DNA of 64,000 nucleotides from Cyclobacteriaceae bacterium (GTDB lineage: Bacteria; Bacteroidota; Bacteroidia; Cytophagales; Cyclobacteriaceae). Position numbers and translations under genes: made by a program. Position 1 is the stretch's first letter; each line of letters starts with the position of its first letter. Below the pieces are notes generated by a model that did no database searches, was not told the DNA's origin, and worked only from the letters and a program-made list of their open reading frames with translations. The stretch spans positions 62,001 to 126,000 of the forward strand of contig JAEUUE010000128.1 of NCBI GenBank assembly GCA_016787605.1, read 5' to 3'. Shown here one piece after another: positions 44 to 55,170 of the stretch.

Positions 44-85
44 GTAATCGGTGATCGGTAATCGGTGATCAGTAATCGGTCGGTT
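44..85. repeat. Heptamer array A, left arm
   Basis: Five consecutive 7-base units alternate between gtaatcg and gtgatcg/a (starts at 44, 51, 58, 65 and 72), followed by a decayed unit. An inverted partner lies at 576-588. Together the arms enclose the four-helix-bundle gene. This is intergenic as far as can be seen, and is one of eight such arrays in the window. Confidence 0.9.
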
Positions 86-171
86 CAGGTTGCATTTGCC
101 ACAAGAACTTGTCAGGTTTTCCGTACACGCCGAGGTGTGGCGTTTTGTGATTCACGGATTAGTATTGATCC

Positions 172-552
172 ATGAAACACGCGAAATCATTCAAAGATCT
201 GGAGATTTATCAGTTAGCCAGAGAATTGGCAAGGGAGATTTATGGATTGACCAAGGCATTCCCCAAGGAGGAAAAATACTCACTTACCGATCAGGTTCGA
301 AGGTCATCCCGGTCAGTAGGGGCTCAAATTGCCGAGGCTTGGGCTAAGCGGAAATATGAAAAGCACTTCGTCAGCAAGCTCACGGATGCAGACGGCGAGC
401 AATTAGAAACCCAGCACTGGGTGGAATCCGCTCGGGACTGCGAACTTCTTAGCTCGGACCAAACCAACGAGCTGATTGCCAAGTATGAAGTTCTTGGCCG
501 TAAACTGTACAACACAATAGAAAAGGCCCACTTATTCTGCTCCGGCAACTGA
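172..552 (+). CDS. Four-helix-bundle protein, S23/IVP-like family
   Basis: A 126-residue protein that I recognise as the four-helix-bundle family (TIGR02436/PF05635), first known from ORFs in intervening sequences of 23S rRNA and related in fold to the Avd protein of diversity-generating retroelements. Family hallmarks seen are the opening FKDLEIYQLARELA, the central 'QVRRSSRSVGAQIAEAWAKR' and the closing 'YEVLGRKLYNTIEKA'. Length is normal for the family. No 23S rRNA is nearby, so this is a free-standing copy. Its biochemical role is unknown; basic helix-bundle members are thought to bind nucleic acid. It is notable for lying between inverted heptamer-repeat arms (44-85 and 576-588), as if the gene and its arms were one unit. 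It looks more A+T-rich than the next gene. Confidence 0.85.
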   Translation: MKHAKSFKDLEIYQLARELAREIYGLTKAFPKEEKYSLTDQVRRSSRSVGAQIAEAWAKRKYEKHFVSKLTDADGEQLETQHWVESARDCELLSSDQTNELIAKYEVLGRKLYNTIEKAHLFCSGN

Positions 553-575
553 TCTACCCGTCACACTGCACCACA

Positions 576-588
576 GATTACCGATCAC
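576..588. repeat. Heptamer array A, right (inverted) arm
   Basis: gattaccgatcac is the exact reverse complement of bases 51-63 in the left arm. It starts 24 bases after the stop of the four-helix-bundle gene and ends at the -7 element of the next gene. Confidence 0.85.
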
Positions 589-596
589 TATCTTTG
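589..596 (+). promoter_or_regulatory. Bacteroidota -7 promoter element, TATCTTTG
   Basis: An exact match to TAnnTTTG, only 5 bases before the ATG at 602. A start site about 6 bases downstream would give an almost leaderless mRNA. No clear -33 TTTG is visible, and that position is occupied by the heptamer arm. Confidence 0.5.
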
Positions 597-601
597 GCTT
601 C

Positions 602-1180
602 ATGGAGCCCAACGAATTTCACCCCAGAAGTTTGCAGCAATGGCGCGCCTGGCTCAGGGTAAACCATCGGAAGGCAAAGAATATCTGGCTGGTTTTGCAC
701 AAGAAGTCAAGCCCCGGGCCAGGTATTGATTACGTACAAGCCGTAGAGGAGGCCCTTTGCTTCGGGTGGATCGACAGCAAGCCTCAGAAGAAAGATAATC
801 ATACCTATCTGCTCTATTTCGCCGAACGTAAGGCCGGCAGCATCTGGAGTAAGTTGAATAAAGAACGCATCACCCGATTGATCAAAGAAGGCCGGATGAC
901 CTCCTACGGCCTGAAGAAGATCGAGGCGGCCAAAGCGGATGGCACCTGGTCGACACTCGACCCGGTGGACATGCTGCAGGTACCGGAGGACCTGGGTAGA
1001 GCGTTTGCCAAAAACAAAAAGGCATGGAAGAACTTCGAAGCCTTTCCGCCGGGTATCAAGAAACAGCTCGTGTACTGGGTTCTTTCCGCCAAGCGCGCAG
1101 AAACCAGGGCTGCTCGCGTCAAGGAAATCGTGGCGAAGGCGGCACGAAATGAGCGGGCGAATCAGTGGGTGAAAAAATAG
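602..1180 (+). CDS. YdeI/OmpD-associated family protein
   Basis: A 192-residue cytoplasmic protein of the YdeI/Omdp family, sometimes annotated 'bacteriocin protection'. Family marks are the N-terminal 'WLVLHKKSSPGPGIDY', 'EEALCFGWIDS' followed by a basic stretch, and the C-terminal Omdp segment 'YWVLSAKRAETRAARVKEIV'. The molecular function of the family is not established, so the bacteriocin label should not be taken literally. It stands alone on the plus strand and converges with the methyltransferase gene, with one base between the two stops. The ATG at 602 is close behind a good -7 element. Confidence 0.85.
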   Translation: MEPNEFHPRSLQQWRAWLRVNHRKAKNIWLVLHKKSSPGPGIDYVQAVEEALCFGWIDSKPQKKDNHTYLLYFAERKAGSIWSKLNKERITRLIKEGRMTSYGLKKIEAAKADGTWSTLDPVDMLQVPEDLGRAFAKNKKAWKNFEAFPPGIKKQLVYWVLSAKRAETRAARVKEIVAKAARNERANQWVKK

Positions 1181-1181
1181 A

Positions 1182-1922
1182 CTACCGATGCCCGTGAACC
1201 CTGCCCAGGCGCAAAATCAATGGAAATTCGACCGAATACAACGCCGCAGCGTTGATTGATCCTATCCTGTCCACCAATTCAGTCACGGGATTCGCTGCTT
1301 TCTCGTGAATAAACTTTTGTGTGGCCGACCACGTATTCAAATAGCCCTCCAGTTCACCAAGGGTCCACTTAAATCGCATGCGGAACGATGGGGTCGCGAT
1401 TTCCTCGAAGGGAAACTCCATGGTCTTCAACTCATCGTCAATTAGCTTTCTTTCCGGGTCCCAGTACGGGCCGACAATGTGCGTATAAAAATCATGGATA
1501 AGGGGATCGATCTCGGGGGATACCTTTAGCAAGCCATAGACCCACACCGCGATAACCCCTCCGGGTTTAGCCACACGGTTCACTTCCTCGTAGAACGCAG
1601 GCCGGTCGAACCAGTGAATGGCCTGCGCCACGGTCACCAGGTCCACCGATTGATCTGGCAGTTGCGTCGTTTCGCCGGCCACTTCATAGACGATGTTCTC
1701 CTTTCTTACTGCCTCCACCAACTGTTTGGCACTGATGTCGGTAGCCAGCACCTTTCTGAACCTTGTCGCCAACACCTGTGCGGCCTGCCCATTTCCCGTC
1801 CCCGCATCCCAGGCCAGGTCGAATGATTTTACCTGCTTGAAAATAAAATCATACAACTCCTTCGGATAATGCGGCCGAAAGGCGGCATACTGGCGGGCCT
1901 GATCGGAGAATCGGTCTTTCAC
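1182..1922 (-). CDS. Class I SAM-dependent methyltransferase
   Basis: A 246-residue methyltransferase with a type-11-like core. Motif I is 'DAGTGNGQAAQVLA', followed by an acidic strand end near 'VLATDISAKQ' and post-motif 'VDLVTVAQAIHWFD'. The N-terminal 'FSDQARQYAAFRPHYPKELYDF' is common in small-molecule methyltransferases of this group. The substrate cannot be read from the sequence. It is the last gene of the minus-strand operon that starts with the GH127 gene, beginning 5 bases after the rhodanese stop. Confidence 0.88.
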   Translation of the reverse strand: MKDRFSDQARQYAAFRPHYPKELYDFIFKQVKSFDLAWDAGTGNGQAAQVLATRFRKVLATDISAKQLVEAVRKENIVYEVAGETTQLPDQSVDLVTVAQAIHWFDRPAFYEEVNRVAKPGGVIAVWVYGLLKVSPEIDPLIHDFYTHIVGPYWDPERKLIDDELKTMEFPFEEIATPSFRMRFKWTLGELEGYLNTWSATQKFIHEKAANPVTELVDRIGSINAAALYSVEFPLILRLGRVHGHR

Positions 1923-1927
1923 TTCAC

Positions 1928-2479
1928 TTAATAGTACTTACATGCCGGGTCTGTCAACTTGTAGATTCCATCCTTCACAAAATAAACGTTCGGGAATCCC
2001 CATTTCTTGAGATAGTAGGCAGCAAGTGGTGCATCGGTGCCCGTTGAACAATAAAGTATCAACGTCTTCCCCTTCATCGAATTAAGGTCTGCTCTCCTTG
2101 TAAAGAAATCACTGAATGGAAACTTAATGTCCCCCTTCAGGCTTCCGATCATGAGACCACTTGAACGATCAATAGCAAGATATTCAGAGGAACGAATATC
2201 CATCAGGACAACACCCGGATGATCCTTCACGTACTGGCAGATCTCGTGAGGTTCAATGGTGCCCGCGGAAACCAATGACTCCTCTACCAGGGGCATTTCA
2301 CATTGACTGCATATACCCTCTTTGGAGAACCGGAGCGTGTCACAGCCCTGACCACACGGCAAACAGGCATACCGAACGGCTCGGGACTGTTGCGCAAAAG
2401 TCGGAAGAGTACCTGCGACCCCCAGCAGGGATACAATTAGTACGGCAACTTTGAATCCATTCCCCTTCACGAGGCCCAT
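1928..2479 (-). CDS. Secreted rhodanese-like protein with Cys-rich metal-binding motif
   Basis: A rhodanese-like sulfurtransferase domain with the active-site loop 'YCSTGTDA' holding the catalytic Cys. It is preceded by an N-terminal signal peptide (hydrophobic stretch ending in TFAQQ) and a short Cys-rich segment, CLPCGQGC...CSQCEMPL, resembling heavy-metal-binding domains. It is therefore probably periplasmic. A start 27 bases upstream (2506) is possible, but it overlaps the upstream gene by 20 bases. The ATG ending at 2479 gives a compact signal peptide and a normal intergenic step, so I prefer it. Likely roles are sulfur or metal handling; the physiological substrate is unknown. Confidence 0.8.
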   Translation of the reverse strand: MGLVKGNGFKVAVLIVSLLGVAGTLPTFAQQSRAVRYACLPCGQGCDTLRFSKEGICSQCEMPLVEESLVSAGTIEPHEICQYVKDHPGVVLMDIRSSEYLAIDRSSGLMIGSLKGDIKFPFSDFFTRRADLNSMKGKTLILYCSTGTDAPLAAYYLKKWGFPNVYFVKDGIYKLTDPACKYY

Positions 2480-2486
2480 ACGAGTA

Positions 2487-4097
2487 TTACTTTTCATATC
2501 CGACACCCCTCACACACCCTCCTGGCTTCGCCCCGGTGTGCTCCCCCTGACGAATAACCGGCACACCATTCACCAGCACGTGTACCACGCCTTCGGCATA
2601 CTGGTGTGGTTCTTCAAACGTGGCTTTATCACGGATCGTTGCCGGGTCGAATACCACCACATCGGCAAAATGGCCCGGCTTCAAGATCCCTCTCCTCTTC
2701 AACCCCAGGTTCGACGCAGGCAACGACGTCATCTTTCGTATGGCCTCCTCCAGGGTAAACAACTTCTCCTCCCGTGTATACTTGCCGAGGACCCGGGCAA
2801 ACGTTCCGTACGCGCGGGGATGGGCCCCAAGATCGAGAAAGTCCTCCGTCGTAGCCAGCGAGCCCCCATCGGAACCGATGCTCACGTACGGCTGCTTCAA
2901 CATCCTTCGCAGGTTGTCTTCCGACATCAGGAAGTAAAGGGAAGGAACCGACGTTTTGTCGGCCACCACCAGGTCAAGCACCGTCTCATCGGCCGACTTA
3001 CCGTGAAGACGGGCCACTTCATCAAGACGCTTGCCTTTATACAAGGCATTCAGCGAATCCTTCTTGAACCCCAGGATCACCACTTGCTCCGGCGGCGAGT
3101 TCTTGGTCGGGAACCCTCGCTCCATGTCCGCCAGGATTTTCTTTCGAATGACCGGATCAACAAAACGCTTGCGCATCTCGACGGCCGTTCCCTCCTGCGC
3201 CCACGTAGGCACCCTCTCTTTGAGGCCCGTGGCGCTTGCAATGTAGGGGTAAATGTTGGCGGTAATCCGAAGGCCGGCCCTTCGTGCACTGTCGACTTTG
3301 GCCAGCACGGCGTCGATCTTGCTCCAGTTGCGCGCCTGGTTGATCTTGAAATGGTAAATCTCCGCAGGCAAACCGGCGCTGCGGGCTATGGCCATCAATT
3401 CATTTAACGCCTCGAGTATCTTATCGCTCTCGCTGCGGAGGTGTGAAATATACATCCCCTTGTACTCGGCGGCTACCTTGCACAGTTCGATCAGCTCCTC
3501 CGTGGTGGCAAAGGTGGCTGGAGCATAAATCAACGAAGAGCCAACCCCGAGGGCTCCTTGCTGCATGGCTTGCCGCACCAGGCGCTTCATCTGATTGAGT
3601 TCTTCCGTCGTCGGCTTGCGGTTTACTTCCCCCATCACATAAGTCCGCACACTGGTTGCCCCCACAAACGAGGCAAAATTCGTGCTGACGCCCTGCTTCT
3701 CCAGGTGATCGAAGTAACCCCCCAGGGTAGTCCACAGTTTTGATCGCTTGCTGCGCTTCCGGGGCCCCGGGCTTATTCCCTCCCCAAAGACTTCCAGGGT
3801 CACGCCTTGCTTGATATCGCTCATTGACCGTCCGTCCTTAAGCAGCGTACCGTCGGCCCAACTGAGCATGTTGATAAAGCCGGGTGCAATCGCCAAACCA
3901 TTGACTGCCAAAACCTCTTTCGCGCTTGCCGAGGAAAGATCGCCCATGGCGGCTATCGTGTCTTTCCGAATACCGACATCGGCTCGTACCGGCGGACTTC
4001 CCAGTCCGTCATACACCATGCCCCCCCGAAGGATGAGGTCAAACTCTTGCGCGCAAGTAGTCCAGCTGATCAAGAAAAGAAACAACCCGATTCTCAC
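2487..4097 (-). CDS. D-aminoacylase-type amidohydrolase
   Basis: A 536-residue exported amidohydrolase of the N-acyl-D-amino-acid deacylase family. It has a signal peptide (residues 1-16, ending TTCAQ), the urease-fold opening 'LILRGGMVYDGLGSPPV', the mid-domain 'YISHLRSES' and 'EIYHFKINQARNW', and the C-terminal 'GHFADVVVFDPATI' common to the superfamily. Members remove acyl groups from D-amino acids or related peptides, using zinc. Its ATG overlaps the stop of the agmatinase-like gene (ATGA at 4094-4097), suggesting coupled translation. The true substrate is uncertain because the family is broad. Confidence 0.85.
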   Translation of the reverse strand: MRIGLFLFLISWTTCAQEFDLILRGGMVYDGLGSPPVRADVGIRKDTIAAMGDLSSASAKEVLAVNGLAIAPGFINMLSWADGTLLKDGRSMSDIKQGVTLEVFGEGISPGPRKRSKRSKLWTTLGGYFDHLEKQGVSTNFASFVGATSVRTYVMGEVNRKPTTEELNQMKRLVRQAMQQGALGVGSSLIYAPATFATTEELIELCKVAAEYKGMYISHLRSESDKILEALNELMAIARSAGLPAEIYHFKINQARNWSKIDAVLAKVDSARRAGLRITANIYPYIASATGLKERVPTWAQEGTAVEMRKRFVDPVIRKKILADMERGFPTKNSPPEQVVILGFKKDSLNALYKGKRLDEVARLHGKSADETVLDLVVADKTSVPSLYFLMSEDNLRRMLKQPYVSIGSDGGSLATTEDFLDLGAHPRAYGTFARVLGKYTREEKLFTLEEAIRKMTSLPASNLGLKRRGILKPGHFADVVVFDPATIRDKATFEEPHQYAEGVVHVLVNGVPVIRQGEHTGAKPGGCVRGVGYEK

Positions 4098-4894
4098 GAT
4101 GTGCGAAGCAGCAAATCCAGCATTTCTTTGTACAGTTTCCCTGCCAGCATCGCCGTGATGCCGGAAGGATCTCGGGAAGGATTGAATTCCACAAGATCGG
4201 CACCGATGATTCGGCCTTTGAGTCGATGGAGCAAGTGAATGATTTGCCGGGACGTAAATCCCCCGGGTTCGTGGTGGCTCACGCCCGGAGCAAAGGCCGG
4301 GTCGATGGCATCCATATCGAGAGAGAGGTATACCGGGCCATCAAAAGTAAAGACGTGATTGTCGTTCCAGTGCTTCATCTGGATAATCTCTACGCCAAAC
4401 CGTTTCGCCTGCTGGAGCTGGTGCGCATTGAGGGTACGAATGCCGACCTGCACCAGCCGTTGAACCAGCCCCTCTTCCATGATTCGGGCAAACGGGCTGG
4501 CATGGGAATCGGGATTGTCCTCAAAATTATCGTAGAGGTCAGGATGGGCATCGATATGAAGTATCGAAAAATTACCATGGGCGGCCTGGATACCACGAAC
4601 CACCGGGGCCGTTATCGAATGATCGCCGCCCAGGACAAAGAGTTTCGGGTACTGCACCGCGAGTTCATGCACGCGGTTCTTGAGATTTCGGAAGTCCGCC
4701 GGGCTGGCCACCGGCAGGTCGCCAAGATCCGTCCAGCCTGCATCACTGCCGAGATCCCTTCCCGATTCGGCAAACGTGTTGGCCGAGTCAGACCGATAGG
4801 CTTCCCGGATTTTTCCTGGCGCCAGGGCGGGTCCGCGAAGGAACGAACTGTTCGCATCAAACGGGATTCCGGCAACGGCAACCTGGGCACTCAT
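4094..4894 (-). CDS. Agmatinase/formimidoylglutamase-like ureohydrolase
   Basis: A 266-residue member of the arginase/agmatinase superfamily. The binuclear Mn ligands are all present: GGDHS (His92), DAHPD (Asp115, His117, Asp119) and 'SLDMDAIDP' (Asp193, Asp195). The length is slightly short for agmatinase, but no catalytic motif is missing. Members hydrolyse guanidino compounds to release urea, or formiminoglutamate to release formamide; which applies here cannot be told. It overlaps both neighbours by 4 bases (ATGA at 4891-4894 and 4094-4097), so it lies in the middle of a translationally coupled operon. Confidence 0.88.
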   Translation of the reverse strand: MSAQVAVAGIPFDANSSFLRGPALAPGKIREAYRSDSANTFAESGRDLGSDAGWTDLGDLPVASPADFRNLKNRVHELAVQYPKLFVLGGDHSITAPVVRGIQAAHGNFSILHIDAHPDLYDNFEDNPDSHASPFARIMEEGLVQRLVQVGIRTLNAHQLQQAKRFGVEIIQMKHWNDNHVFTFDGPVYLSLDMDAIDPAFAPGVSHHEPGGFTSRQIIHLLHRLKGRIIGADLVEFNPSRDPSGITAMLAGKLYKEMLDLLLRTS

Positions 4895-6939
4895 TTCGCT
4901 ACGGGAAAGGCGGAAATGCGCAAACGGGCTGCCCCCATCGGGATCAGCGTGATGTCGGCTTCGGGCTCTGTCGTCTGCACCGGGCTTTGAGGGAGTTCAG
5001 CACAGAGTCCATACTGATCGATGCTCCATCCCGGGACAGGACGGCCTTTGGATTTCAATTCTATGGGGGCGCCGGCATGCGTGAAAGGAAAATTATCGGC
5101 AGGCCAGGGCTTCTTCACCACGGTGAACGCCTTTTCCAGGTTCGACAGGTCGCCGCTCAGCGCATAATTCCACGGCCCGGCAGGCAGGATTTCGAAAGCC
5201 GGCCACTTGCTCTGATCCACATTGTCCTGCCACTTGGAGTCGTACTGGGCCGTAGCCTTGCTGTCAAGCTTCACGTAATTTTCAGCAATCTTCAGGGAGA
5301 ACGTCAGCGGTCCGTAATTGATGCTTACGCTGTTCTTGTTCTTCTCCCAGGTGCGCGCTGACAATTTCATTGGGAAGGAAAGTGTGATGGCATCGCCATT
5401 TTTCCAACTTCCCTGGATGCGCACAAATTGTCCTGCCATCGGGGTTACAGCAATCTCCTTATTGTTTACGCTCACTTTGGCTTTATCGGCCCAGGCTGGG
5501 ATGCGGAAGTACAGGGGGAACGATGCAGGCCGGGCAAGTTCAACTTTCATCCTTACCTGGTCTTCAAAGGGATAGTGAGTTTGAGTGGTGATCTTCACCT
5601 GCGTCTTATCGCCTACGGTGGCTTTCACTTCACTGTCGGAATAGAAGACGGCCGCCAGTCCGTTGTCGGGCGTGGCCATCCACAGGTTCTCCGCATAGTA
5701 TACCCAGCCACTCGTGTGGTTGTGCTGGCAGCAACGGCTGCTGAAGGGATTCATCATCAGGTAAGGCCCGGGGTTGTCGATACCCGGGTTATGATTCTTG
5801 CTGTCGCTGGCCACCATGTTGGGAGCCACGAGGTATCGCAGCGACCGGTAGTCGGGCATGAAGGCGGCCGGGAAGGTATTGAACGCCACATCCTCGGCGT
5901 TTTCCGCCCAGTACGTATCCCCGGTGATCCGCATCATGATTTCATCCGACGCCATCTGCTCTACCATTCCGCAAGTCTCGACGGCCTGGCGGGGGTCGAT
6001 GAACCCCTTGCGGGAATTTTCATCGCCACCCCACATGCCGCCCGGCACCTGGCCATAGAAATCGCGGATGGTTTTCTGGTTGTTGTAGCTCGCCTGGAGA
6101 TCATCCGGGTTTTTGGATTGCTGGTAGTAAGTGGCCGGCTCCCGGAAGCACTGCGCAATATTTACGTTATGCCAGTTGGGAAGCCATCCATTGAGCCGCC
6201 AGTTGGCCGTGTTGCGGTGCACCTTGTTGGCCAGGTCGAGCAGCCACGGCTCTTTCGTGTGGTTGTAGAGCCAGTAGACACTGTACAGGTTATCTCCCCC
6301 ACGGCTGTTCTCCCAATAGTCTGTTAGAAAATCTGTTTCCGGTATAGTCATCTGCCACTTGAAGTAGCGTGTCATATGAGTAATCACACGAGGGTCGCTG
6401 CTGTACTCGTAGTACGACTGGAGCACAAACAGCATCAGCATCTGCGCCCAGAGGTCGCGCTTGCCGTTCGACTTCCGGATGACATACGGTCCGAAGTCGC
6501 CGTTGTCGCGCTGGCTGTTCAGGGTTCCGTTGATCCAAATCATCGCCTCATCGATCATCTTCTTGTCGTTGAGCACGTAGCCGATGTTGGCATAACCCTT
6601 CAGCCAGTAAGGCATCTCCTCCCAGCCCCAGTCGCCGGTTCCGTCCTTGTTGAGCCAGGCATTGTTTTTCTTGGTCAGCCACGCGCTGATCTCTCCCAGT
6701 TGGCCCGTCAGCCCGTCGCGCTGCAGCTCAAGGCTCTTCAGCAGCCACCCGCCCGGCTTCACGGCACCTACAGGCAACTTCACCAGGTGTTGACCGACCA
6801 GCGGTGCCTGGTTGGTGTGATAATAGGCGTTCATCCTGTCGTTGGCGGGCTTTGGTACCACCGAGGCCTCCCAGGGCTGGGCACAAACCATGTGTGCAAC
6901 AACGATCAGTGTGGCAGCTAGTTTATTTCTCATTGTCAT
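4891..6939 (-). CDS. GH127-like beta-L-arabinofuranosidase
   Basis: An exported glycoside hydrolase of about 682 residues. It opens with a signal peptide (MTMRNKLAATLIVVAHMVCAQ), then 'VGAVKPGGWLLKSLELQRDG', 'LKGYANIGYVLND', 'METCGMVEQM'-like and 'MNPFSSRCCQHNHTSGW', patterns I associate with GH127/DUF1680 enzymes whose active site has a zinc-bound Cys cluster (the CC and upstream Cys here). The open frame extends upstream to 7101, but that part is low-complexity repeat DNA. The ATG ending at 6939, just before the signal peptide, is the likely start. It is the first gene of the operon running down to 1182 and is divergent from the dehydrogenase at 7184. Confidence 0.8.
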   Translation of the reverse strand: MTMRNKLAATLIVVAHMVCAQPWEASVVPKPANDRMNAYYHTNQAPLVGQHLVKLPVGAVKPGGWLLKSLELQRDGLTGQLGEISAWLTKKNNAWLNKDGTGDWGWEEMPYWLKGYANIGYVLNDKKMIDEAMIWINGTLNSQRDNGDFGPYVIRKSNGKRDLWAQMLMLFVLQSYYEYSSDPRVITHMTRYFKWQMTIPETDFLTDYWENSRGGDNLYSVYWLYNHTKEPWLLDLANKVHRNTANWRLNGWLPNWHNVNIAQCFREPATYYQQSKNPDDLQASYNNQKTIRDFYGQVPGGMWGGDENSRKGFIDPRQAVETCGMVEQMASDEIMMRITGDTYWAENAEDVAFNTFPAAFMPDYRSLRYLVAPNMVASDSKNHNPGIDNPGPYLMMNPFSSRCCQHNHTSGWVYYAENLWMATPDNGLAAVFYSDSEVKATVGDKTQVKITTQTHYPFEDQVRMKVELARPASFPLYFRIPAWADKAKVSVNNKEIAVTPMAGQFVRIQGSWKNGDAITLSFPMKLSARTWEKNKNSVSINYGPLTFSLKIAENYVKLDSKATAQYDSKWQDNVDQSKWPAFEILPAGPWNYALSGDLSNLEKAFTVVKKPWPADNFPFTHAGAPIELKSKGRPVPGWSIDQYGLCAELPQSPVQTTEPEADITLIPMGAARLRISAFPVAK

Positions 6940-7026
6940 TTCGGGTATTGGGAAAGCTACAAAGGCGGGGATTAAATTCAAACGGAGAATAGGTCGACTT
7001 TCCCGGCCCATTGAACGAGCGGGTAG

Positions 7027-7094
7027 CCACCGCGGAGTCGCTGAGGTTCGCCAAGGGCTTTGCGCTACTTCGCGTCTTGGCGACTTGGCGGTGG
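7027..7094. repeat. Octamer word array H with dyad arms
   Basis: On the minus strand, 8-base units of the type aagNcgcN repeat from about 7094 downwards. The left end (7027-7046) is an imperfect inverted copy of the right end (7076-7094), sharing ccaccgc and agtcgc blocks and differing at paired bases. It lies between the divergent GH127 and dehydrogenase genes. False open frames run through it on both strands. Confidence 0.75.
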
Positions 7095-7183
7095 TTACCA
7101 TCCCTCCCGTTGAAAATCCACTTGGCTAAAACCAAACCTGCATTTCGAATTTAGCAGTACATTTATAAAGACGTGTTCCACCC

Positions 7184-8641
7184 ATGAAGTACCCGCTGGT
7201 TTCGAATTTCATTAACGGTCAAGCTTCACCATCGTCGTCCAGCAGGATGCTGGATGTCATCTCACCGATCGATGGCACTCCCCTGTCGAAGGTACCGATG
7301 TCGTCGAAGGCAGATCTTGACCAGGCCGTAGCGGCAGCGCAGAAAGCCCTGCCCGGCTGGAGTCGCGCACCCATCAAGGAGCGCGTACAGGTGTTCTTCC
7401 GTTACAAGGTGCTGCTGGAAAAGAACCTGAAAGAACTCTCCGAACTCATCCAGGAAGAAAACGGGAAAACCTATGGCGAAGCCGTCGCTGAGATCGAGAA
7501 GAGCATTGAGCTTACCGAGTTCGCAGCCTCACTGCCCCAGCTGGTCACCGGCGAAGTGCTGGAAGTCAGCTCAGGCGTGGAATGCCGTACAGAGCATGTC
7601 CCTGTGGGCGTGGTGGCTTCCATCGTCCCGTTCAACTTCCCGGCTATGGTTCCCAACTGGACGATTCCCAACGCGCTCGCCCTGGGCAACTGCATGATCA
7701 TTAAGCCGTCGGAGAAGGTTCCGCTTACCCTCGGCCGGTTGGCCTTGTTACTCAAAGAAGCCGGGCTACCTGACGGTGTTTTCAATATCGTCAACGGCGA
7801 CAAAGAGATGGTCGATGCCATTTGCAATCACCCGGGTATCGAAGCGGTCTCCTTTGTCGGATCGACGAAAGTCGCCAAGCTTGTCTACCAGCACGCCACC
7901 CATAACCTCAAGCGGTGCCTTGCGCTCGGCGGAGCCAAGAATCACCTCATCGTGCTCCCCGACGCCATCCCCGTCATGACGGCGCAGAATGTTACTGCTT
8001 CGATGAGCGGATGCGCAGGCCAGCGGTGTATGGCAGCATCGGCCATGGTGGCGGTGGGATCGGTGGACCACATCATTGAAAAAATCTGCGAGGAGGCAAG
8101 AAAAGTGCGCCCCGGGCAGAACCTGGGTGCTGTCATCAGCCGCGAAGCCAAGGAGCGGATTGAACGATACATTACGGAAGCGGAGCAGCAGGGTGCCAAA
8201 ATTCTCGTCGACGGACGGGGTGCTTCCGTTGCCGGTAAAGAGAAAGGGACCTATGTGGGGCCCACCGTGATTGATTTTGTGAAGCCCGACATGGCCGTGG
8301 CCCGGGAAGAGATTTTCGGGCCGGTGATCAGCATTATCCGGGCGCGCACCGTTGACGAAGCGCTCGCCATTGAGAATGCCAATCCGTATGGCAACGCCGC
8401 CTCCGTCTACACCCAAAGCGGTGGCATTGCCCGGTATGTCACCGAACGGGCCAGCGCAGGGATGGTAGGGGTCAATGTGGGTGTCCCTGTTCCCCGCGAA
8501 CCGTTTTCCTTTGGTGGATGGAATGAAAGCCGCTTCGGGGCCGGCGACATCACCGGGAAAAGCTCCATAGGCTTTTGGACCAAACTGAAGAAGACCACAA
8601 CGAAGTGGAATCCGGAATCGGGCATTAACTGGATGAGCTAA
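7184..8641 (+). CDS. mmsA: Methylmalonate-semialdehyde dehydrogenase (CoA-acylating)
   Basis: A 485-residue aldehyde dehydrogenase of the MmsA/IolA type, which oxidises methylmalonate or malonate semialdehyde to propionyl- or acetyl-CoA with NAD+ and CoA. The fold motifs are complete: 'PFNFPAMVPNWTIPNALA', 'VSFVGSTKVAK', and the catalytic Cys282 in 'GCAGQRCMA'. The C-terminal 'MVGVNVGVPVPREPFSFGGW' is strongly MmsA-like. It works in valine, beta-alanine and inositol breakdown. The following aminotransferase gene (8719) fits a beta-alanine or valine pathway, although a 77-base gap filled with repeat arrays separates them. Confidence 0.92.
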   Translation: MKYPLVSNFINGQASPSSSSRMLDVISPIDGTPLSKVPMSSKADLDQAVAAAQKALPGWSRAPIKERVQVFFRYKVLLEKNLKELSELIQEENGKTYGEAVAEIEKSIELTEFAASLPQLVTGEVLEVSSGVECRTEHVPVGVVASIVPFNFPAMVPNWTIPNALALGNCMIIKPSEKVPLTLGRLALLLKEAGLPDGVFNIVNGDKEMVDAICNHPGIEAVSFVGSTKVAKLVYQHATHNLKRCLALGGAKNHLIVLPDAIPVMTAQNVTASMSGCAGQRCMAASAMVAVGSVDHIIEKICEEARKVRPGQNLGAVISREAKERIERYITEAEQQGAKILVDGRGASVAGKEKGTYVGPTVIDFVKPDMAVAREEIFGPVISIIRARTVDEALAIENANPYGNAASVYTQSGGIARYVTERASAGMVGVNVGVPVPREPFSFGGWNESRFGAGDITGKSSIGFWTKLKKTTTKWNPESGINWMS

Positions 8642-8647
8642 CCACTG

Positions 8648-8675
8648 GTTGGATGTTGGGCGTTGGGCATTGGAG
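8648..8675. repeat. Heptamer array B1
   Basis: Four units in register, gttggat, gttgggc, gttgggc and attggag, starting at 8648, 8655, 8662 and 8669. It lies just after the mmsA stop codon. Confidence 0.8.
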
Positions 8676-8685
8676 CAACAAAACT

Positions 8686-8714
8686 TTGAACTGTTGAACA
8701 TTGAACTGTTGAAC
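8686..8714. repeat. Word array B2, 14-base direct repeat
   Basis: ttgaactgttgaac occurs at 8686-8699 and again at 8701-8714, built from ttgaac words spaced 7-8 bases apart. It ends 4 bases before the ATG of the aminotransferase gene, where a ribosome-binding site would lie. Confidence 0.85.
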
Positions 8715-35467: not shown

Positions 35468-35525
35468 CAATTGACAACAGAAAAATGGCAATTGACAATA
35501 GACTTGTCAATGTGATCGTTGACAG
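35468..35525. repeat. Word array C with 7-bp hairpin
   Basis: caattgacaa occurs at 35468-35477 and 35489-35498, 21 bases (three 7-base steps) apart. attgaca (35491-35497) and tgtcaat (35505-35511) form a perfect inverted pair, and ttgacag follows at 35519-35525. It lies between convergent genes and could serve as a terminator. Confidence 0.75.
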
Positions 35526-39151: not shown

Positions 39152-39160
39152 AATGAAGGA

Positions 39161-39186
39161 ACAGTGGTCAGTAAACAGTGGTCAGT
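39161..39186. repeat. Word array D in the tmRNA leader
   Basis: acagtggtcagt occurs at 39161-39172 and 39175-39186, a 14-base (2 x 7) period. It lies between the tmRNA promoter and the mature 5' end, so it is transcribed as part of the precursor leader. Confidence 0.8.
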
Positions 39187-44768: not shown

Positions 44769-44853
44769 CATTTGAAAATTTGAAAATGGAGTGCCTTTGT
44801 CAAAAGGGCTTAAATCCCCGTCGCTGCGCACTGCATTTTCAAATCTTCAAATT
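44769..44853. repeat. Word array E, long imperfect dyad
   Basis: The left arm (from 44769) has tttgaaaa words, and the right arm (44833-44853) has their reverse complement, ttttcaaa, with about two mismatches over 20 bases; a gtgc/gcac pair lies inside. It occupies the gap between the SSB and BatA-like genes and probably forms a hairpin in RNA from either strand. Confidence 0.75.
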
Positions 44854-49641: not shown

Positions 49642-49736
49642 TTGGACGCTGACCGACAACCCGGCGATATATTCTGCGTATGCAGGATAAGAAGCACCCA
49701 TTGGCTCCTCCCGTCAAGTGGGGTAATCAAGAAACA

Positions 49737-50606
49737 ATGAAACGATTGCTGATTGTCTTGCTGGCTGGGTGTGCCTCCGTGGCGTTTGCCCAGGAATCCC
49801 TTCTGGTAACACCCGAATGGCTGAATGAACACAAATCCGACAACGATCTTGTGATCGTACAGCCCAACTACCTGAAGTACGATTACGATGCCGGGCACAT
49901 CGAAGGAGCCCGCTACCTGTGGCCTCCGGCCTTATCTCCCGACTCCCCGGAAGGAAGCCTCAATGCCCCGACCAGCCAGGCGGCGACCGAACTGCTTGGA
50001 TCACTTGGTATTACCCGCAACAGCCGCATCGTGCTCTGTCATGTGCGCAATGAAGTGAGCCAGACGGCACGAGTATTTGTCGTACTGGAACAGCTGGGGA
50101 TGAAAGGCAAGGTGTTCTTCCTCAACGGAGGGCTGGAGGCCTGGAAGAAGGCCGGCTTCCCCGTAACCAAAGAAGCACCGGTAATAAAGCCTGCCCGGTT
50201 TGAAGTCTCTGTAACTCCCCTTTTGGTTGACAAAGAATATGTGAAGAAGAACCTCAACGCCACAGGCACACTTATCGTAGATGCCCGCATGAAGAATTAT
50301 TATGATGGTGAGCCGGCGGGACAGCCCCGCGACGGTCACATCAGTGGAGCAAAGAACATTCCTTACACCGAAATGCTCGATCCCGCCACCTATGTGTTTA
50401 AGCCCGCGGATCAACTGAAGAAATACTTTGAACCCGTGGCCACTCCCGACAAAGAACTCGTGGCCTATTGCTTCATCGGCCAGACGGCGAGTGTTGTGTA
50501 CATGGCCGGTCGCATCCTGGGCTACAACATGAAAGTCTACGACGGTTCCATCCAGGAATGGAGCCGCATTCCCGACCTTCCGATGGAGAAGACGGAAAAA
50601 AAGTAG
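49737..50606 (+). CDS. Exported two-domain sulfurtransferase
   Basis: A 289-residue protein with two rhodanese domains, like thiosulfate or 3-mercaptopyruvate sulfurtransferases. A signal peptide (ending VAFAQ) is followed by an inactive first domain ('RIVLCHVRNEVSQTARVFVV', where the Cys loop is altered) and a second domain with catalytic Cys245 in 'VAYCFIGQTASV'. 'KNLNATGTLIVDARMKNYYD' matches the second-domain start. The frame is open to 49680, but the ATG at 49737 opens the signal peptide. The periplasmic acceptor is unknown. Confidence 0.88.
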   Translation: MKRLLIVLLAGCASVAFAQESLLVTPEWLNEHKSDNDLVIVQPNYLKYDYDAGHIEGARYLWPPALSPDSPEGSLNAPTSQAATELLGSLGITRNSRIVLCHVRNEVSQTARVFVVLEQLGMKGKVFFLNGGLEAWKKAGFPVTKEAPVIKPARFEVSVTPLLVDKEYVKKNLNATGTLIVDARMKNYYDGEPAGQPRDGHISGAKNIPYTEMLDPATYVFKPADQLKKYFEPVATPDKELVAYCFIGQTASVVYMAGRILGYNMKVYDGSIQEWSRIPDLPMEKTEKK

Positions 50607-50821
50607 GCCCTCCTGATTCTTGCTGACGTTAACATATTCTTAATCGCCATGCGCGATGATTTGTAACATCTTTGACCCATTTTGCGTTACCAATACAGTC
50701 TTGATTTCCTTTCCGCCGTACATTTTTCAACGAAGCAAAAAGTTGACGGCGAAACGCGAAGAAAGCCAAACAAAATGGCGGCGCGAGAGGGGAAACATCA
50801 GAAAATTTGGGAACGATAAGC

Positions 50822-51145
50822 ATGAGCTGGATTACGCTATATATATCAGGAAAGACGGACTTTCGCCAGGAGGTGCGGCGCAAGCTGGAACATTCCTCCA
50901 TTCCGCACATGCCGGGGTACATGGAAACCAACCCCGGGCAGGAGCCGGCCGACCTCTATTGGCTCGATGGAACCGTATCGATTAAGAAACTGAAGGCGCA
51001 GATCGGCTCAAAGTTGATCTGGAAACACCGGCTACGCTTCTATACCTCGCTGGAGGATTTCATGGCCTCCCGCCAGGCCCCCGCCGAAACCGGCTTTACC
51101 GCCCGTGAACGCGAGATGATCACCGAAATGCGGGCGGCATCATAA
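50822..51145 (+). CDS. Small conserved protein of unknown function
   Basis: A 107-residue cytoplasmic protein: 'MSWITLYISGKTDFRQEVRR', 'KLEHSSIPHMPGYMET', 'LYWLDGTVSIKKLKAQIGSK', then 'RLRFYTSLEDFMASRQ'. The mix of an N-terminal strand with a Gly-Lys loop and two helices suggests a small alpha/beta fold. I do not recognise a family. The ATG at 50822 is preferred over 50807 because the MSWITLYISG strand begins there. It is followed by word array F. Confidence 0.6.
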   Translation: MSWITLYISGKTDFRQEVRRKLEHSSIPHMPGYMETNPGQEPADLYWLDGTVSIKKLKAQIGSKLIWKHRLRFYTSLEDFMASRQAPAETGFTAREREMITEMRAAS

Positions 51146-51180
51146 CATTCCATTGGAAGAATAATGGTCTCGGAGAACCG

Positions 51181-51262
51181 AAAAATGTAAAATGTAAAAC
51201 AGCAAAATGTAGAAGTGAGGAGCACCACTTTTACATTTTACATTGCCTATTTTACATTTTGC
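51181..51262. repeat. Heptamer array F, nested dyads
   Basis: aaaatgt words step by 7 bases (51182, 51189) and recur at 51204. A perfect 16-base inverted pair lies at 51184-51199 and 51229-51244, and a second 10-base pair at 51202-51211 and 51253-51262. It sits between the gene ending at 51145 and the small gene at 51306. Confidence 0.9.
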
Positions 51263-51284
51263 GGTTTCATGAGGGAAGATTAAT

Positions 51285-51292
51285 TATCTTCC
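51285..51292 (+). promoter_or_regulatory. -7-like element TATCTTCC
   Basis: The same variant as at 10098; it ends 13 bases before the ATG at 51306. Confidence 0.35.
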
Positions 51293-51305
51293 CTTTTCCT
51301 TATCC

Positions 51306-51548
51306 ATGCCCCCAGACCTTACCCGAAACATTCTCACTGCCTTGCTGGCCGAAAACCGGCCCGAGGCCATGGTGAACGCCGTGAGGGTCGCCGGCTCTGC
51401 CCTGACATACGAGCAGGTCTTTCAAGCCGTGATGGAAATGGAAAACAGGAATTATATCAAACTGGTTTACTGTCAATTTCCAGCGGTCATCAATGTCCAA
51501 CTGACACTCGTTGGAAAAGACGCAGCCGATAAACTCTCCACTCCATGA
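51306..51548 (+). CDS. Small protein, winged-helix-like, unknown
   Basis: An 80-residue protein: 'DLTRNILTALLAENRPEAMV', 'SALTYEQVFQAVMEMENRNY' and 'VQLTLVGKDAADKLSTP' suggest three helices and a beta wing. The family is not recognised. It is coupled to the M20 hydrolase by an ATGA overlap (51545-51548). A -7-like element precedes it, so it likely heads the operon. Confidence 0.65.
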   Translation: MPPDLTRNILTALLAENRPEAMVNAVRVAGSALTYEQVFQAVMEMENRNYIKLVYCQFPAVINVQLTLVGKDAADKLSTP

Positions 51549-52828
51549 GAATACTTGTCGTGGTCTTTGCTTTGTACTCACTGGTCACCGTGGCCCAACC
51601 ACAACCCCGCGGGAATCCCAAACGGATGGAACAGCGCATCCTCAAGCTGGGTACGTTTGGCGCCAACCCGCAAGGCGGCGTCAGCCGTGTGGCTTACAGC
51701 GATGCCGACCTGGCCGGACGGGCTTACGTCATGAACCTGATGAAAGCAGCAGGGCTGGACGTTTCCGTCGACGCCGCCGGCAACATCATCGGCAAACGGA
51801 AAGGAACGGATCCTTCCCTCCCGGTGATTGCCTTCGGGTCGCATATCGACAGCGTACCCGGTGGTGGCAACTACGATGGCGACGTGGGGTCGCTCGGAGC
51901 CATCGAATGCATCGAACTGATGAACGAGCACAAGATCACCACCCGGCATCCGCTCGAAGTGATCATCTTCCAGAATGAAGAAGGGGGCCTGATCGGAAGC
52001 GAGGCGCTGTGCGGAATCCTTCCGTCCGCCTCTCTCGACCTGGTCACACACAGCGGCAAGACCATCCGGCAGGGCATTGCCGATATTGGCGGCAACGTAG
52101 CACAGCTCTCCACTGCAGCCAAACCAAAAGGGTACTATCATGCTTTCCTCGAACTTCATATTGAGCAGGGTGGCATCCTCGATCAGAAGGAAATCAACAT
52201 CGGGGTCGTCGAAGGGATTGTCGGGATCAACCAATGGAGAGTAACCATCACTGGCAAGGCCAACCACGCCGGCACCACACCTATGGATCAACGGCAGGAC
52301 GCCATGGTGGCCGCGGCCAAACTCACGGTGGCCGTGAACAAGGCCGCCACTTCCGTTGCCGGCCGCCAGGTGGCCACGGTGGGACAAATGCATCCGGAAC
52401 CGGGCGCGCCCAATGTGATCCCCGGGAAGGTGACGATGTCGATCGAGATTCGCGACCTCTCCCATGAAAAAATCCTGTCGGTCTTCGACGCCATCCGTGA
52501 ACAGGGTGCTGCCATCGAGAAAGAAACCGGCACCACGATCACTTACGAACTGACGAACGAAAACCTGCCGGCGCCAACCGACAAACGCATCCAGGAGATG
52601 GTGAGTGCGGCGGCAAAATCGCTGGGCTTTTCATCCCTGGTGATGCCGAGCGGAGCCGGGCACGATGCGCAGGATATGGCCACCCTGGCCCCCACCGGGA
52701 TGATCTTCGTCCCCAGCAAGAACGGGGTCAGTCATGCACCCGATGAATACACCTCACCCGAAGACATGGCAAACGGCGTCAGCGTATTGCTTCAAACCGT
52801 TCTGAATATTGACAAAACAAAATTCTAA
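51545..52828 (+). CDS. Exported M20-type amidase/hydrolase, N-carbamoyl-amino-acid hydrolase-like
   Basis: A 427-residue metallohydrolase of the allantoate amidohydrolase/N-carbamoyl-L-amino acid hydrolase group. A signal peptide (ending TVAQ) precedes 'FGSHIDSVPGGGNYDGDVGS' (first metal His and bridging Asp), 'FQNEEGGLIGSEA', 'LELHIEQGGILD', the dimer-domain 'GKANHAGTTPMDQRQDAMVA' and 'PSGAGHDAQDMA' with the last His. Export argues against a role in intracellular pyrimidine breakdown. The substrate is unknown. It lies 9 bases before the serine hydrolase gene. Confidence 0.88.
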   Translation: MRILVVVFALYSLVTVAQPQPRGNPKRMEQRILKLGTFGANPQGGVSRVAYSDADLAGRAYVMNLMKAAGLDVSVDAAGNIIGKRKGTDPSLPVIAFGSHIDSVPGGGNYDGDVGSLGAIECIELMNEHKITTRHPLEVIIFQNEEGGLIGSEALCGILPSASLDLVTHSGKTIRQGIADIGGNVAQLSTAAKPKGYYHAFLELHIEQGGILDQKEINIGVVEGIVGINQWRVTITGKANHAGTTPMDQRQDAMVAAAKLTVAVNKAATSVAGRQVATVGQMHPEPGAPNVIPGKVTMSIEIRDLSHEKILSVFDAIREQGAAIEKETGTTITYELTNENLPAPTDKRIQEMVSAAAKSLGFSSLVMPSGAGHDAQDMATLAPTGMIFVPSKNGVSHAPDEYTSPEDMANGVSVLLQTVLNIDKTKF

Positions 52829-52837
52829 TTCAATAGC

Positions 52838-54094
52838 ATGAAATACCTCCTCTCCTTCCTCCTGTGCCTATCCGCCTGGTGGGCTGTCGCACAATCGTTC
52901 GCGCCAGGGAAACCCGCGGAAAACGGACTTTCAGTCGACCGGCTTAATCGCATCGACCAACTGGTCACTGATCACGTGGACAAAAAGCGGGTAAACGGGG
53001 CGGTCGTCATGGTCGTACGCAACGGAAAGGTGGTCTACCACAAAGCCTTTGGGTACAGCGATGTCGAGAAACAGACGGCGATGAAAAAGGACGACATTTT
53101 CCGCATCGCCTCTCAAACCAAAGCCATCACGTCGCTGGCCGTGATGATGCTCTTTGAAGAAGGAAAGTTCCTTCTTGACGACCCGGTGTCGCGTTACATT
53201 CCGGAATTCAAGAACCCGAAGGTGCTGGGCACGGTGAACTGGGCCGATACCAGCTATACAACGCAGCCAGCCAAGGGCGAGATCACCATCCGCCAGTTGC
53301 TGACGCACACGTCGGGCATCGACTACGCCTCCATTGGCAGCCAGGAGTTCAAGGCCATTTACGCCAAAGCGGGCATCCCCAGTGGCATCGGCACAAACAA
53401 TGTCGTCCTTGCCGACAAGATGAAGAAGCTTGGCGGGATGCCGTTGAAGCATCCACCAGGTGAAGCTTTTACCTATGGATTGAATACCGATGTGCTGGGC
53501 TACCTGGTGGAAGTGCTATCAGGCATGTCGCTTGACCAGTTCTTCCGGACACGTATTTTCCAGCCACTGGGGATGACCGACACCTACTTCTATCTGCCCA
53601 AGGAGAAGCACGCACGCCTCGTGCCCTTGTATCAAGTGACCGACGACAAGCTCTCAAAGGTCTCCAATAAGGTTTTCGACAACATCGATCTCAACTACCC
53701 GACCATGGCCGGCACGTATTACTCCGGAGGTGCGGGGCTAAGTTCCACCACGGAAGACTACGCCAAATTTTTGCAGTTGTTCATCAACAAGGGTGAATTC
53801 AACGGAATACGTCTTCTGAGCCGAAAGACTGTAGAACTGATGCTGACCAATCAGACGAAGCCGCCCATCACCGAGCAGGTTGGGCTGGGCTTCGGGCTGG
53901 AAACCAATATGAACGATTACCAGTCCATCTACTCCCTGGGTACCTTCAGCTGGGGCGGGGCCTTCAGTACGAATTACTGGGCCGACCCCAAGGAGAAGAT
54001 GGTATGCCTGGTCTATACGAACCTCATGGCGTCACCGTATCGCAACATGAATGAAAAGGTCAAAACACTGATCTACCAGGCCATCGTGGATTAG
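52838..54094 (+). CDS. Serine hydrolase, class C beta-lactamase-like
   Basis: A 418-residue exported protein: signal peptide 1-19 (ending VAQ), catalytic Ser92-x-x-Lys95 in 'IASQTKAITS', Tyr-x-Asn in 'FTYGLNTDVLG', and the third motif probably near 'FSWGGAFSTNYW' (HxG/KTG equivalent as WGG). It belongs to the beta-lactamase-like esterase/D-peptidase group; it should not be read as an antibiotic-resistance gene. Likely in one operon with the M20 hydrolase. Confidence 0.9.
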   Translation: MKYLLSFLLCLSAWWAVAQSFAPGKPAENGLSVDRLNRIDQLVTDHVDKKRVNGAVVMVVRNGKVVYHKAFGYSDVEKQTAMKKDDIFRIASQTKAITSLAVMMLFEEGKFLLDDPVSRYIPEFKNPKVLGTVNWADTSYTTQPAKGEITIRQLLTHTSGIDYASIGSQEFKAIYAKAGIPSGIGTNNVVLADKMKKLGGMPLKHPPGEAFTYGLNTDVLGYLVEVLSGMSLDQFFRTRIFQPLGMTDTYFYLPKEKHARLVPLYQVTDDKLSKVSNKVFDNIDLNYPTMAGTYYSGGAGLSSTTEDYAKFLQLFINKGEFNGIRLLSRKTVELMLTNQTKPPITEQVGLGFGLETNMNDYQSIYSLGTFSWGGAFSTNYWADPKEKMVCLVYTNLMASPYRNMNEKVKTLIYQAIVD

Positions 54095-54114
54095 ACCTTT
54101 TGTAGCTTTACCGT

Positions 54115-55026
54115 ATGGGACATGACCATGGACATACCCACGGCCCACGCATCCTGACCGGGGTCAGCACGGCCTTCTCCATCGGCATTTGGCTCAACTT
54201 CCTGTTTGTTGTCGTGGAGGCCGTGGTGGGCTTCCGCATCCAGTCCATGTCGCTGCTGTCGGATGCCGCCCACAACCTGGCCGACGTCGGCACGCTCGTG
54301 CTGTCGCTGGTGGCCTTCCGCCTGCTCAAGGTCAAGGCCAACGAACACTATACCTACGGCTACCGCAAAACCTCGATCCTCGTCGCGCTCTTCAACTCGG
54401 TCATCCTCCTGGTTTCCATCGGGGCGATTGCCTTTGAGGCCGTCCAGAAGGCGCTGTACCCGCAGCCGCTGCCGGGATCTACGATCGCCATCGTGGCGGG
54501 CATCGGCGTACTGGTCAACGGGACCACGGCCTTCTTCTTCCTGCGTGAAAAAGACAAAGACATCAACATCAAGAGCGCCTACCTGCACCTGCTGAGCGAT
54601 ACGCTGGTGTCCGCAGCGATTGTGGCGGGAGGCATCGCTATCGTCTATACGGGCTGGTATTGGGTCGACAGCGCCCTCAGCCTCCTGGTGGTCGGTGTTA
54701 TCCTCGTGAGCACCTGGCGGCTGCTGCGCGAAAGCCTCAAACTCTCACTGGACGGAGTGCCCAACAATATCTCGGTGAAGGACATTACCGAACGTGCGCT
54801 GCGATACGACGGCGTGGTGGGCCTTCACCATGTGCACATCTGGGCCTTGAGTTCCACCGAAAATGCCCTCACCGCCCACCTGGTGCTCTGCAAGGATGTA
54901 TCCCACGACCGCGAACGAACGATCAAGGAACAGTTCCGGCACGAACTGCTGCATCAGCAGATCCAGCATATCACGCTGGAGACGGAGTGGGAAAACGAGC
55001 CCTGCGAAGCAGAGGACTGTCCATAG
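54115..55026 (+). CDS. Cation diffusion facilitator (CDF) transporter
   Basis: A 303-residue CDF-family exporter of Zn2+/Co2+/Cd2+. A His-rich N-terminus (MGHDHGHTHG) precedes six membrane helices, with metal-site 'SLLSDAAHNLADVGTLVLSL' in TM2 and 'LHLLSDTLVSAAIVAGGIAI' in TM5. The C-terminal cytoplasmic domain has 'HHVHIWALSSTENALTAHLV'. All transport-site residues (Asp, His, Asp) are present. The ATG follows the serine hydrolase stop by 20 bases. It converges on the ABC permease gene across array G. Confidence 0.93.
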   Translation: MGHDHGHTHGPRILTGVSTAFSIGIWLNFLFVVVEAVVGFRIQSMSLLSDAAHNLADVGTLVLSLVAFRLLKVKANEHYTYGYRKTSILVALFNSVILLVSIGAIAFEAVQKALYPQPLPGSTIAIVAGIGVLVNGTTAFFFLREKDKDINIKSAYLHLLSDTLVSAAIVAGGIAIVYTGWYWVDSALSLLVVGVILVSTWRLLRESLKLSLDGVPNNISVKDITERALRYDGVVGLHHVHIWALSSTENALTAHLVLCKDVSHDRERTIKEQFRHELLHQQIQHITLETEWENEPCEAEDCP

Positions 55027-55170
55027 TCCATGGTCGATAGACGATAGACGCTTAGGCTTGAATTTTATGCGAGATAGTGGTTCCCCTTCAGAGGCAAGGG
55101 GCGGGGAAAATAACCGTCAATGAAACCAAAGCCACGGACCATGGACCATTGACCATCGGCTATCGACCAC
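55019..55170. repeat. Heptamer array G, large dyad
   Basis: The left arm has five 7-base units (gtccata, gtccatg, gtcgata, gacgata, gacgctt at 55019-55053), and the right arm has five (ggaccat, ggaccat, tgaccat, cggctat, cgaccac at 55136-55170). An 18-base part of the arms is inverted with about two mismatches. The 82-base centre has no ORF. The left arm starts inside the last codons of the CDF gene and the right arm ends against the permease stop. Confidence 0.9.

Follow-up and report, generated by a model that had tools for sequence, protein, structure and literature searches.

Heptamer arrays in a Cyclobacteriaceae genome as probable arms of small insertion elements that carry an IVP gene

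Within a 64,000-nucleotide stretch of a Cyclobacteriaceae genome, hereafter the window (G000:C134:62001-126000, from an assembly of 3.98 Mb in 191 contigs), one of eight loci built of short tandem words was found to enclose a gene for the 23S rRNA intervening sequence protein (IVP, or S23p) between complementary heptamer arms. Indeed, all four IVP genes of this genome are flanked by inverted complementary arms with heptamer arrays. From these and further observations in other bacteria we consider it probable that heptamer arrays represent arms, whole or residual, of small insertion elements of the intervening sequence (IVS) kind that reside outside of rRNA genes, and that arrays lacking an IVP gene are derivatives of such elements. 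Reports of heptameric repeats from unrelated bacteria span decades but, to our knowledge, have led to no accepted origin, and IVP, for which structures have been solved, has no known function. The eight loci, designated A to H, were listed in a preliminary description of the window as arrays between genes; their sequences are indeed present at the positions given there, and the gene inside locus A had been overlooked.

The left arm of locus A (positions 43-80, forward strand) consists of five heptamers of the form GGTAATC/GGTGATC in a 14-mer alternation, with a score of 19 at lag 7 and 22 at lag 14 in a scan that counts +1 for each match and -1 for each mismatch. Positions 51-67 of this arm pair with a right arm of about 2.4 heptamers, CACAGATTACCGATCAC (572-588, forward strand), with 94% complementarity over 17 nt and a distance of 504 nt between them. 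Between the arms lies an open reading frame (ORF) at 172-552 on the forward strand that encodes a protein of 126 aa with a match to PF05635 (23S_rRNA_IVP) above the cut-off (E 1e-31), to the bAvd-like family PF22296 below the cut-off (E 1.2e-8), and to the solved structures PDB 2gsc (1e-7) and 2rld (8e-6); it belongs to the four-helix-bundle family '23S rRNA intervening sequence protein'. The extra DNA of the element occupies positions 1-601 of the forward strand, within the 604 nt that extend from the stop codon of an ABC-F ATPase gene, just before the window, to an OmdA-like gene at 602. Because this location between ABC-F and OmdA-like genes is outside of a 23S rRNA gene, locus A, though probably IVS-like in its working, is not a 23S IVS. 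Another IVP element (L063, at C134:59713) lies just outside the window on the opposite side of the ABC-F gene, and its words, GGTCACC/GGTAACC, are related to those of locus A.

No IVP gene was found in loci B to H, and the genome encodes four in total, as compared to none in 14 control genomes. The complementary arms of the four copies measure 17 nt at 94% complementarity (locus A), 40 nt at 83%, 46 nt at 76% and 85 nt at 76%, and score 14.8 (locus A), 24.6, 25.8 and 41.0 against shuffled nulls of about 10 (flanks of 500 and 600 nt). For reference we used a sample of 733 kb of this genome including the window, reduced to 616 kb for statistics by exclusion of six tiles that had been picked for GTCCAT hits; gene limits in the sampled tiles were set by our own hexamer ORF caller and are not curated annotation (for example, the gene to the left of locus H starts at 6891 by this caller, as opposed to 7101 for the longest ORF). 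For 554 other genes of the sample, scored with narrower flanks of 250 nt, the 99th percentile of the arm score was 12.8, and heptamer arms scoring at least 14 surrounded only two of these 554 non-IVP genes. A non-IVP gene of 1.4 kb at L057:6650-8086 is bracketed by complementary heptamer arrays (score 22.8), and may have been caught between two elements. A motif close to TTGTCAGGTTTTCCG recurs between the left arm and the IVP start in the copies L061, L062 and L064 of this genome.

The whole unit at locus A is present in one relative and absent from another at the same site. In the congener G014 the same two flanking genes are only 6 nt apart (stop, GTACGG, start), as compared to 604 nt here (L205 versus L206), with the ABC-F proteins 86% identical over 297 aa and the OmdA proteins 54% identical over 192 aa.

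The association between IVP genes and heptamer arms extends well beyond this genome. PF05635 was present in 49 of 58 relatives (this genome included), in up to 15 copies, and arms scoring at least 13 were found in 24 of the 32 loci from congeners and the order that had enough flank (the four described above included; L077 and L082 were dropped from 34). To the best 80 of 578 IVP loci in named genomes, less two with too short a flank (L099, L171) and one with no right flank (L164), corresponded a median arm score of 17.4 (n=77), as compared to 9.6 for 135 control genes from the same loci (p 5e-25), and 65 of the 77 exceeded the control 95th percentile. Among the 61 named loci scoring at least 13, base matches within the arms reached 0.65-0.69 at lags 7, 14 and 21 but only 0.18-0.37 at all remaining lags between 2 and 20; for long left arms the best lag was 7 in 43 of 49, 8 in five and 9 in one. 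The hosts include Bacteroidota, Ignavibacteria, Planctomycetota, Fibrobacter, Desulfobacteria and a purple sulfur gammaproteobacterium. The words differ from locus to locus and are complementary between the arms of any one locus. Elements whose IVP proteins are more nearly identical also have more similar arms (Mantel rho 0.31, p 0.001, 110 elements), and two pairs of IVP loci have identical arms (L080 and L100; L076 and L117), each pair joining a congener and a metagenome-assembled genome named Flammeovirgaceae bacterium.

IVP genes were also found on 34 plasmid records, 28 of them cyanobacterial. Of 16 cyanobacterial plasmid loci fetched, 15 had arms above every null draw (median 23.1 versus 9.4), and 13 had a lag-7 segment scoring at least 10 on one side or more. 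On three cyanobacterial plasmids (L361, L366, L368) IVP genes with heptamer arms lie inside CRISPR-cas operons, twice as cas6-IVP-cas4 and once as cas10-IVP-cmr3. IVP is listed among CRISPR-linked genes in a figure legend (PMC10910872), and such positions may be the reason for that listing. Carriage by phages was also considered and set aside, as one IVP protein had no match at 1e-5 in 50,697 phage records.

A comparison of one operon revealed a relation between IVP elements and IVP-less hairpins. We searched 58 genomes for the operon HAD - thiolase - acyl-CoA dehydrogenase and compared its two gaps in 30 of them (this genome and 29 congeners). An IVP gene was present in the gap before the thiolase gene in 14 genomes, in the gap after it in 11, in both in three and in neither in eight, with elements of about 400-640 nt. 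In 17 of the 19 genomes with an IVP gene in one gap only, the other gap measured at least 60 nt, and in all 17 it contained a hairpin scoring above 20 shuffles. Such hairpins occurred in only two of the eight genomes without IVP in the operon (Fisher p 0.002, with close relatives not independent). Moreover, the words of the two gaps resembled each other more within genomes than between them, with mean similarities of 17.5 and 11.2 for 21 genomes (permutation p 5e-5), and of 18.2 and 11.1 for 15 one-IVP genomes from which the near-duplicates L247 and L249 had been removed (permutation p 5e-5). In 12 of the 17 one-IVP genomes the IVP-less hairpin and the neighbouring IVP element had a word in common at a score of at least 15. 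In L246 and L250, which carry two IVP genes of different subfamilies, the words of the two elements differ, and each word is like those of related IVP genes elsewhere. The operon of the present genome contains no IVP gene and a single heptamer arm (TTGTCTACTGCCTATTGTCAATTGTCAA), which we read as a relic. As a separate observation, a large share of the high-scoring Bacteroidota IVP genes reside in these two gaps (L065-L173, L235-L264), which hold different IVP subfamilies in different genomes.

Heptamer arrays are themselves a general feature of the present genome. Intergenic DNA of the 616-kb sample contained 22 segments at lag 7 and 20 at lag 14, as compared to 0-3 at each other lag from 4 to 16, and ten shuffles of this intergenic DNA (77 kb) gave a single lag-7 segment in total; coding DNA of the sample contained four. 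The lag spectra and the shuffles rule out chance as the origin of the arrays, of which lower thresholds disclosed 52 in the sample. The earlier view, in which the arrays are a non-random feature of intergenic DNA across the genome, with numerous words and with inverted arms, is borne out, and the refuting condition named there, period-7 runs at the rate of shuffled intergenic sequence, does not hold (22 versus 1 in ten shuffles). The further proposal that each locus has its own word was too strong: there are many distinct words, yet GTCCATNGTCCAT matched 20 times at 15 places across the genome, while its reversed control matched nowhere. Outside of the window (552 kb), the word of locus A recurred 26 times (reversed control 3) and those of E and B2 three times each (controls 0), and the words B1, C, D, F, G and H stayed at or near control level, with tiles rich in the word of G excluded. 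Words drift within an array and recur from array to array, and they are too many and distinct for one ordinary dispersed repeat family to account for the arrays. The preliminary description, which implied unrelated loci, each the product of some word-making mechanism, is therefore partly supported in its interpretation and partly confirmed as an observation: different loci draw on a common stock of words, and the IVP gene is a physical partner of the arrays.

The arrays of this genome also favor stop codons. Of the 46 gene 3′ ends that adjoin the 38 arrays with both neighbouring genes known, 23 are no more than 5 nt away from the array, as compared to 10.9 expected (p 1.6e-4), and 15 of these 23 stop-proximal arrays overlap the ORF end, whereas only one of 30 gene 5′ ends is close to an array (expected 4.2). 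GTCCAT arrays were noticed at or near three contig ends (C61, C68, C93), so that arrays of this kind may break the assembly and be undercounted.

According to the reading we favor, a complete element would consist of a heptamer arm, the IVP (S23p) gene and a complementary heptamer arm, and would be placed in the gap 3′ of a stop codon. Hairpins without an IVP gene, and single arms, would derive from loss of the IVP core, or from short copies placed by a nearby, mobile IVP element, and the seven IVP-less loci B to H of the window would share this origin. The arms are proposed to pair as DNA, in a cruciform or a single-strand hairpin, and not as sense RNA. The 7-base step may come from handling of the arm by IVP or by repair that IVP recruits, and copying from arm to arm would keep the two arms complementary while the word drifts, which would in turn produce different words at different loci.

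Several observations weigh against this reading. Only one of the eight window loci has an IVP gene, the right arm of that locus is short and lacks a lag-7 array of its own, and the genome contains four IVP genes as compared to dozens of arrays. Most of its arrays are single, with hairpins scoring at least 13 in only six among the 38 with two neighbours, and no clustering of arrays with the same word was evident along the genome in unbiased tiles (p 0.45), as compared to p 0.004 once tiles picked for one word were included. Neither target-site duplication nor transposition was observed, and at locus A the flanks are too diverged for exact ends to be defined. Among the named loci, 12 of 77 do not rise above the 95th percentile of the controls, and no more than 17 rise above the 99th, which stands at 21.7 because two control genes have strong arms. 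The Mantel signal comes mostly from pairs more than 60% identical, many of which are orthologous. Furthermore, 53 of 113 IVP loci occupy one operon slot and are thus not independent, and at this slot a locus's own right arm ranks first for its left arm in only 10 of 52 cases, because relatives share words. Across 19 genomes (after G053, with 4 kb only, was dropped) the density of arrays correlated only weakly with the number of IVP genes (Spearman 0.33, p 0.17), and a simple dependence of density on that number was set aside. The difference in density between genomes with zero or one IVP gene and IVP-rich genomes (p 0.045) is carried by G037, G054 and G055, and four of ten IVP-rich genomes had no array in 39-80 kb.

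Some of these points would be expected from ordinary replication slippage, in which a step of seven is favored by the polymerase footprint, an idea cited in PMC4692102, and IVP elements have arrays simply since any inverted arms grow in this way. Arrays far outnumber IVP genes, their density tracks IVP count weakly, and direct arrays such as that at L056:15627-15906, with about 40 CTCGGTG-type units over 280 nt and far beyond most other arrays of the sample, look slippage-grown. However, slippage alone would not explain why one gene family, as compared to control genes, is enclosed by inverted complementary arms, nor why hairpins with the same word, but no IVP gene, occur in the gap adjoining an IVP element; in addition, the sampled genomes with zero or one IVP gene have lag-7 counts at about the shuffle level (4 in 9 genomes). 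We therefore regard slippage as an unlikely explanation of the whole, although the best placed of the alternatives.

Selection for transcript stem-loops, operon by operon, as terminators, elements of processing or stability, or sites of protein binding, appears more doubtful still. It is true that arrays are found at stop codons between genes, that heptamer repeats near stop codons in Xanthomonas are reported to be mostly transcribed, and that the stem of a 23S IVS is cut by RNase III. The arms also have a strand bias in the sense of the IVP gene, with 6.8% C and 27.6% G in left arms and 7.4% G and 27.7% C in right arms, so C-poor left arms face G-poor right arms. Nevertheless, mismatches between arms comprised 78 sense G-U and 79 A-C (32 and 27 loci, 85 arm pairs), without the excess of G-U that selection for RNA pairing would give, and selection of RNA stems is rejected or at least weakened by this result, in a test of limited power, as arms made of repeats are open to misalignment. 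As sense G-U pairs are not preferred, hairpins at the DNA level are favored as the substrate of IVP, or of repair around IVP.

Mobilization of the hairpins by a REPIN/RAYT or IS200-like Y1 transposase or by a reverse transcriptase, with IVP as a passenger, is very improbable, given that strong arm sets each have their own word and share no fixed palindromic end sequence and that no RVT_1 match was found in this genome at E 0.001, which removes the genome's own reverse transcriptase (of a retroelement or intron) as a candidate; one clear and three weak Y1_Tnp matches in this genome speak for it and leave a helper transposase open.

Cyanobacterial short tandemly repeated repetitive sequences (STRRs) are heptameric simple sequence repeats, among which the long simple sequence repeats (LSSRs) of Mrazek (2007) are reportedly counted as well. 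The arrays described here are likewise 7-base tandem units in intergenic DNA beyond chance, and they resemble published heptameric repeats in their degenerate units, their position at stop codons, their inverted pairs and their variation in length and sequence between close relatives. For example, the heptamers GGGAATC in Xanthomonas and GGGGA(T/C)T in Nostoc lie near or overlap stop codons when on the sense strand and a short distance upstream of ORFs when on the antisense strand, with 70 and 75 inverted pairs in two Xanthomonas genomes (PMC4692102), and TAACTGA heptamers are known from Beggiatoaceae (PMC4679880). By contrast, the present arrays are tied to an IVP gene, whereas the published ones are named without an associated gene in the text available to us; as determined by word search, neither PMC4692102 nor PMC4679880 contains IVP, four-helix or S23 terms. 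As far as they could be consulted, published accounts of heptamer repeats offer polymerase slippage, regulation or horizontal transfer.

The closest known relative is the 23S IVS of Coxiella burnetii, of about 430 nt, in which an S23p/IVP ORF lies in the loop of a terminal inverted stem, three tandem heptamers and one degenerate copy precede the S23p start, their copy number varies between strains, and an origin as a transposition remnant or mobile element has been proposed (PMC4990558). Locus A similarly encodes an IVP/S23p four-helix-bundle protein within complementary terminal arms, whereas the elements here lie between protein genes, occur in several copies, have long arrays on one or both sides and are accompanied by IVP-less derivatives. 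In their short, gene-less inverted-repeat forms beside a gene-bearing relative they are reminiscent of miniature inverted-repeat transposable elements (MITEs) and REPINs, but they have no fixed end sequence, end in locus-specific heptamer words and have no transposase assigned to them. The Avd protein of diversity-generating retroelements is a four-helix bundle homologous to IVP, and PF05635 is a model that picks up Avd-like proteins (PMC10053308); the lack of an RVT_1 match sets the present genome apart from such retroelements, whose template and variable repeats were not sought. Both heptamer repeats as such and their occurrence in one 23S IVS were thus known before; a search of the open-access literature, with subscription journals and preprints outside its scope, found no paper in which heptamer repeats at large are connected with IVP genes.

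Within the window, lag-7 segments scoring at least 12 occur in A (43-80), B (8648-8673), F (51173-51199) and both arms of G (55019-55050 and 55132-55165), and none occurred in five Markov shuffles of the window. The period of 7 or 8 described earlier is accordingly 7 for these four loci, whereas E and H have a period of 8, D is two copies of a 14-mer, and C is weak. Locus G (55019-55169) consists of GTCCATR heptamers with an inverted second arm (lag-7 scores 17 and 17). Its first word supplies the stop codon (55024-55026) of a CDF transporter gene (54115-55026), which in the relatives G006 and G021 ends at a different stop with no array after it; the earlier placement of all loci between genes is thus nearly right, as arrays often start within a stop codon. 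Locus F (51173-51267, forward strand) contains AAAATGT heptamers (lag-7 scores 12 and 10) in a hairpin with perfect core arms of 16 nt and a loop of 29 nt (hairpin score 16). Five loci had been credited with clear inverted arms, which by eye can be seen in E, F and G; at a scan score of at least 13 only F qualifies among the IVP-less loci of the window, with the arms of A at 14.8.

Locus B (8648-8714) is formed by two abutting direct arrays, of GTTGGGC with a step of 7 and TTGAAC with a mixed step of 7/8 (lag-7 score 13, lag-15 score 16), and locus D (39160-39186) by the 14-mer AACAGTGGTCAGTA repeated twice. Locus C (35468-35525), directly 3′ of a stop codon, has TTGACAA heptamers (lag-7 score 9) and a partial inverted arm. 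Its array is missing 3′ of the GH65 gene in six of six congeners, which also have a different downstream gene; locus C therefore offers no site comparison, and turnover of an orthologous array was set aside there. Locus E (44769-44853, reverse strand) has inverted arms with an 8-base word (ATTTGAAA) and lies upstream of a BatA-like gene, where the congener G014 has arrays of other words and four further congeners have none, with only the BatA side conserved. Locus H (7027-7094) also has inverted arms with an 8-base word (ACTTGGCG; TRF period 8 with 3 copies, lag-8 score 12). Across the gene to its left (4891-6891) extends a 20-nt inverted pair, CCACCGCCAAGTCGCCAAGA / TCTTGGCGACCTGCCGGTGG (score 15.6), with one arm within locus H and the other within the coding region of the next gene.

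More tentatively, IVP could be the core protein of widespread transposase-free mobile elements that make their own ends. Hairpin DNA would be recognized or shaped in 7-base steps, a lineage-specific word would be kept the same in both arms by hairpin-templated copying, and IVP-less hairpins would be seeded in neighbouring stop-codon gaps, such that the IVSs of 23S rRNA could possibly be one phenomenon with the heptameric STRRs found in cyanobacteria, in Xanthomonas and Beggiatoaceae, and in Bacteroidota. If the association between IVP and the arrays holds as we read it, a long-known class of repeats would gain a candidate source, and each partner would explain the other, in that the repeats would have IVP as their protein partner, and IVP would have the repeats as its ends or substrate. 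A very common orphan family would thereby acquire a testable prediction, and the presence of IVP genes in operon gaps would give a plain reason for their 'CRISPR-linked' or operon-linked appearance. It would also raise the question of how a protein could set a period of seven bases in DNA whose sequence stays free to differ.

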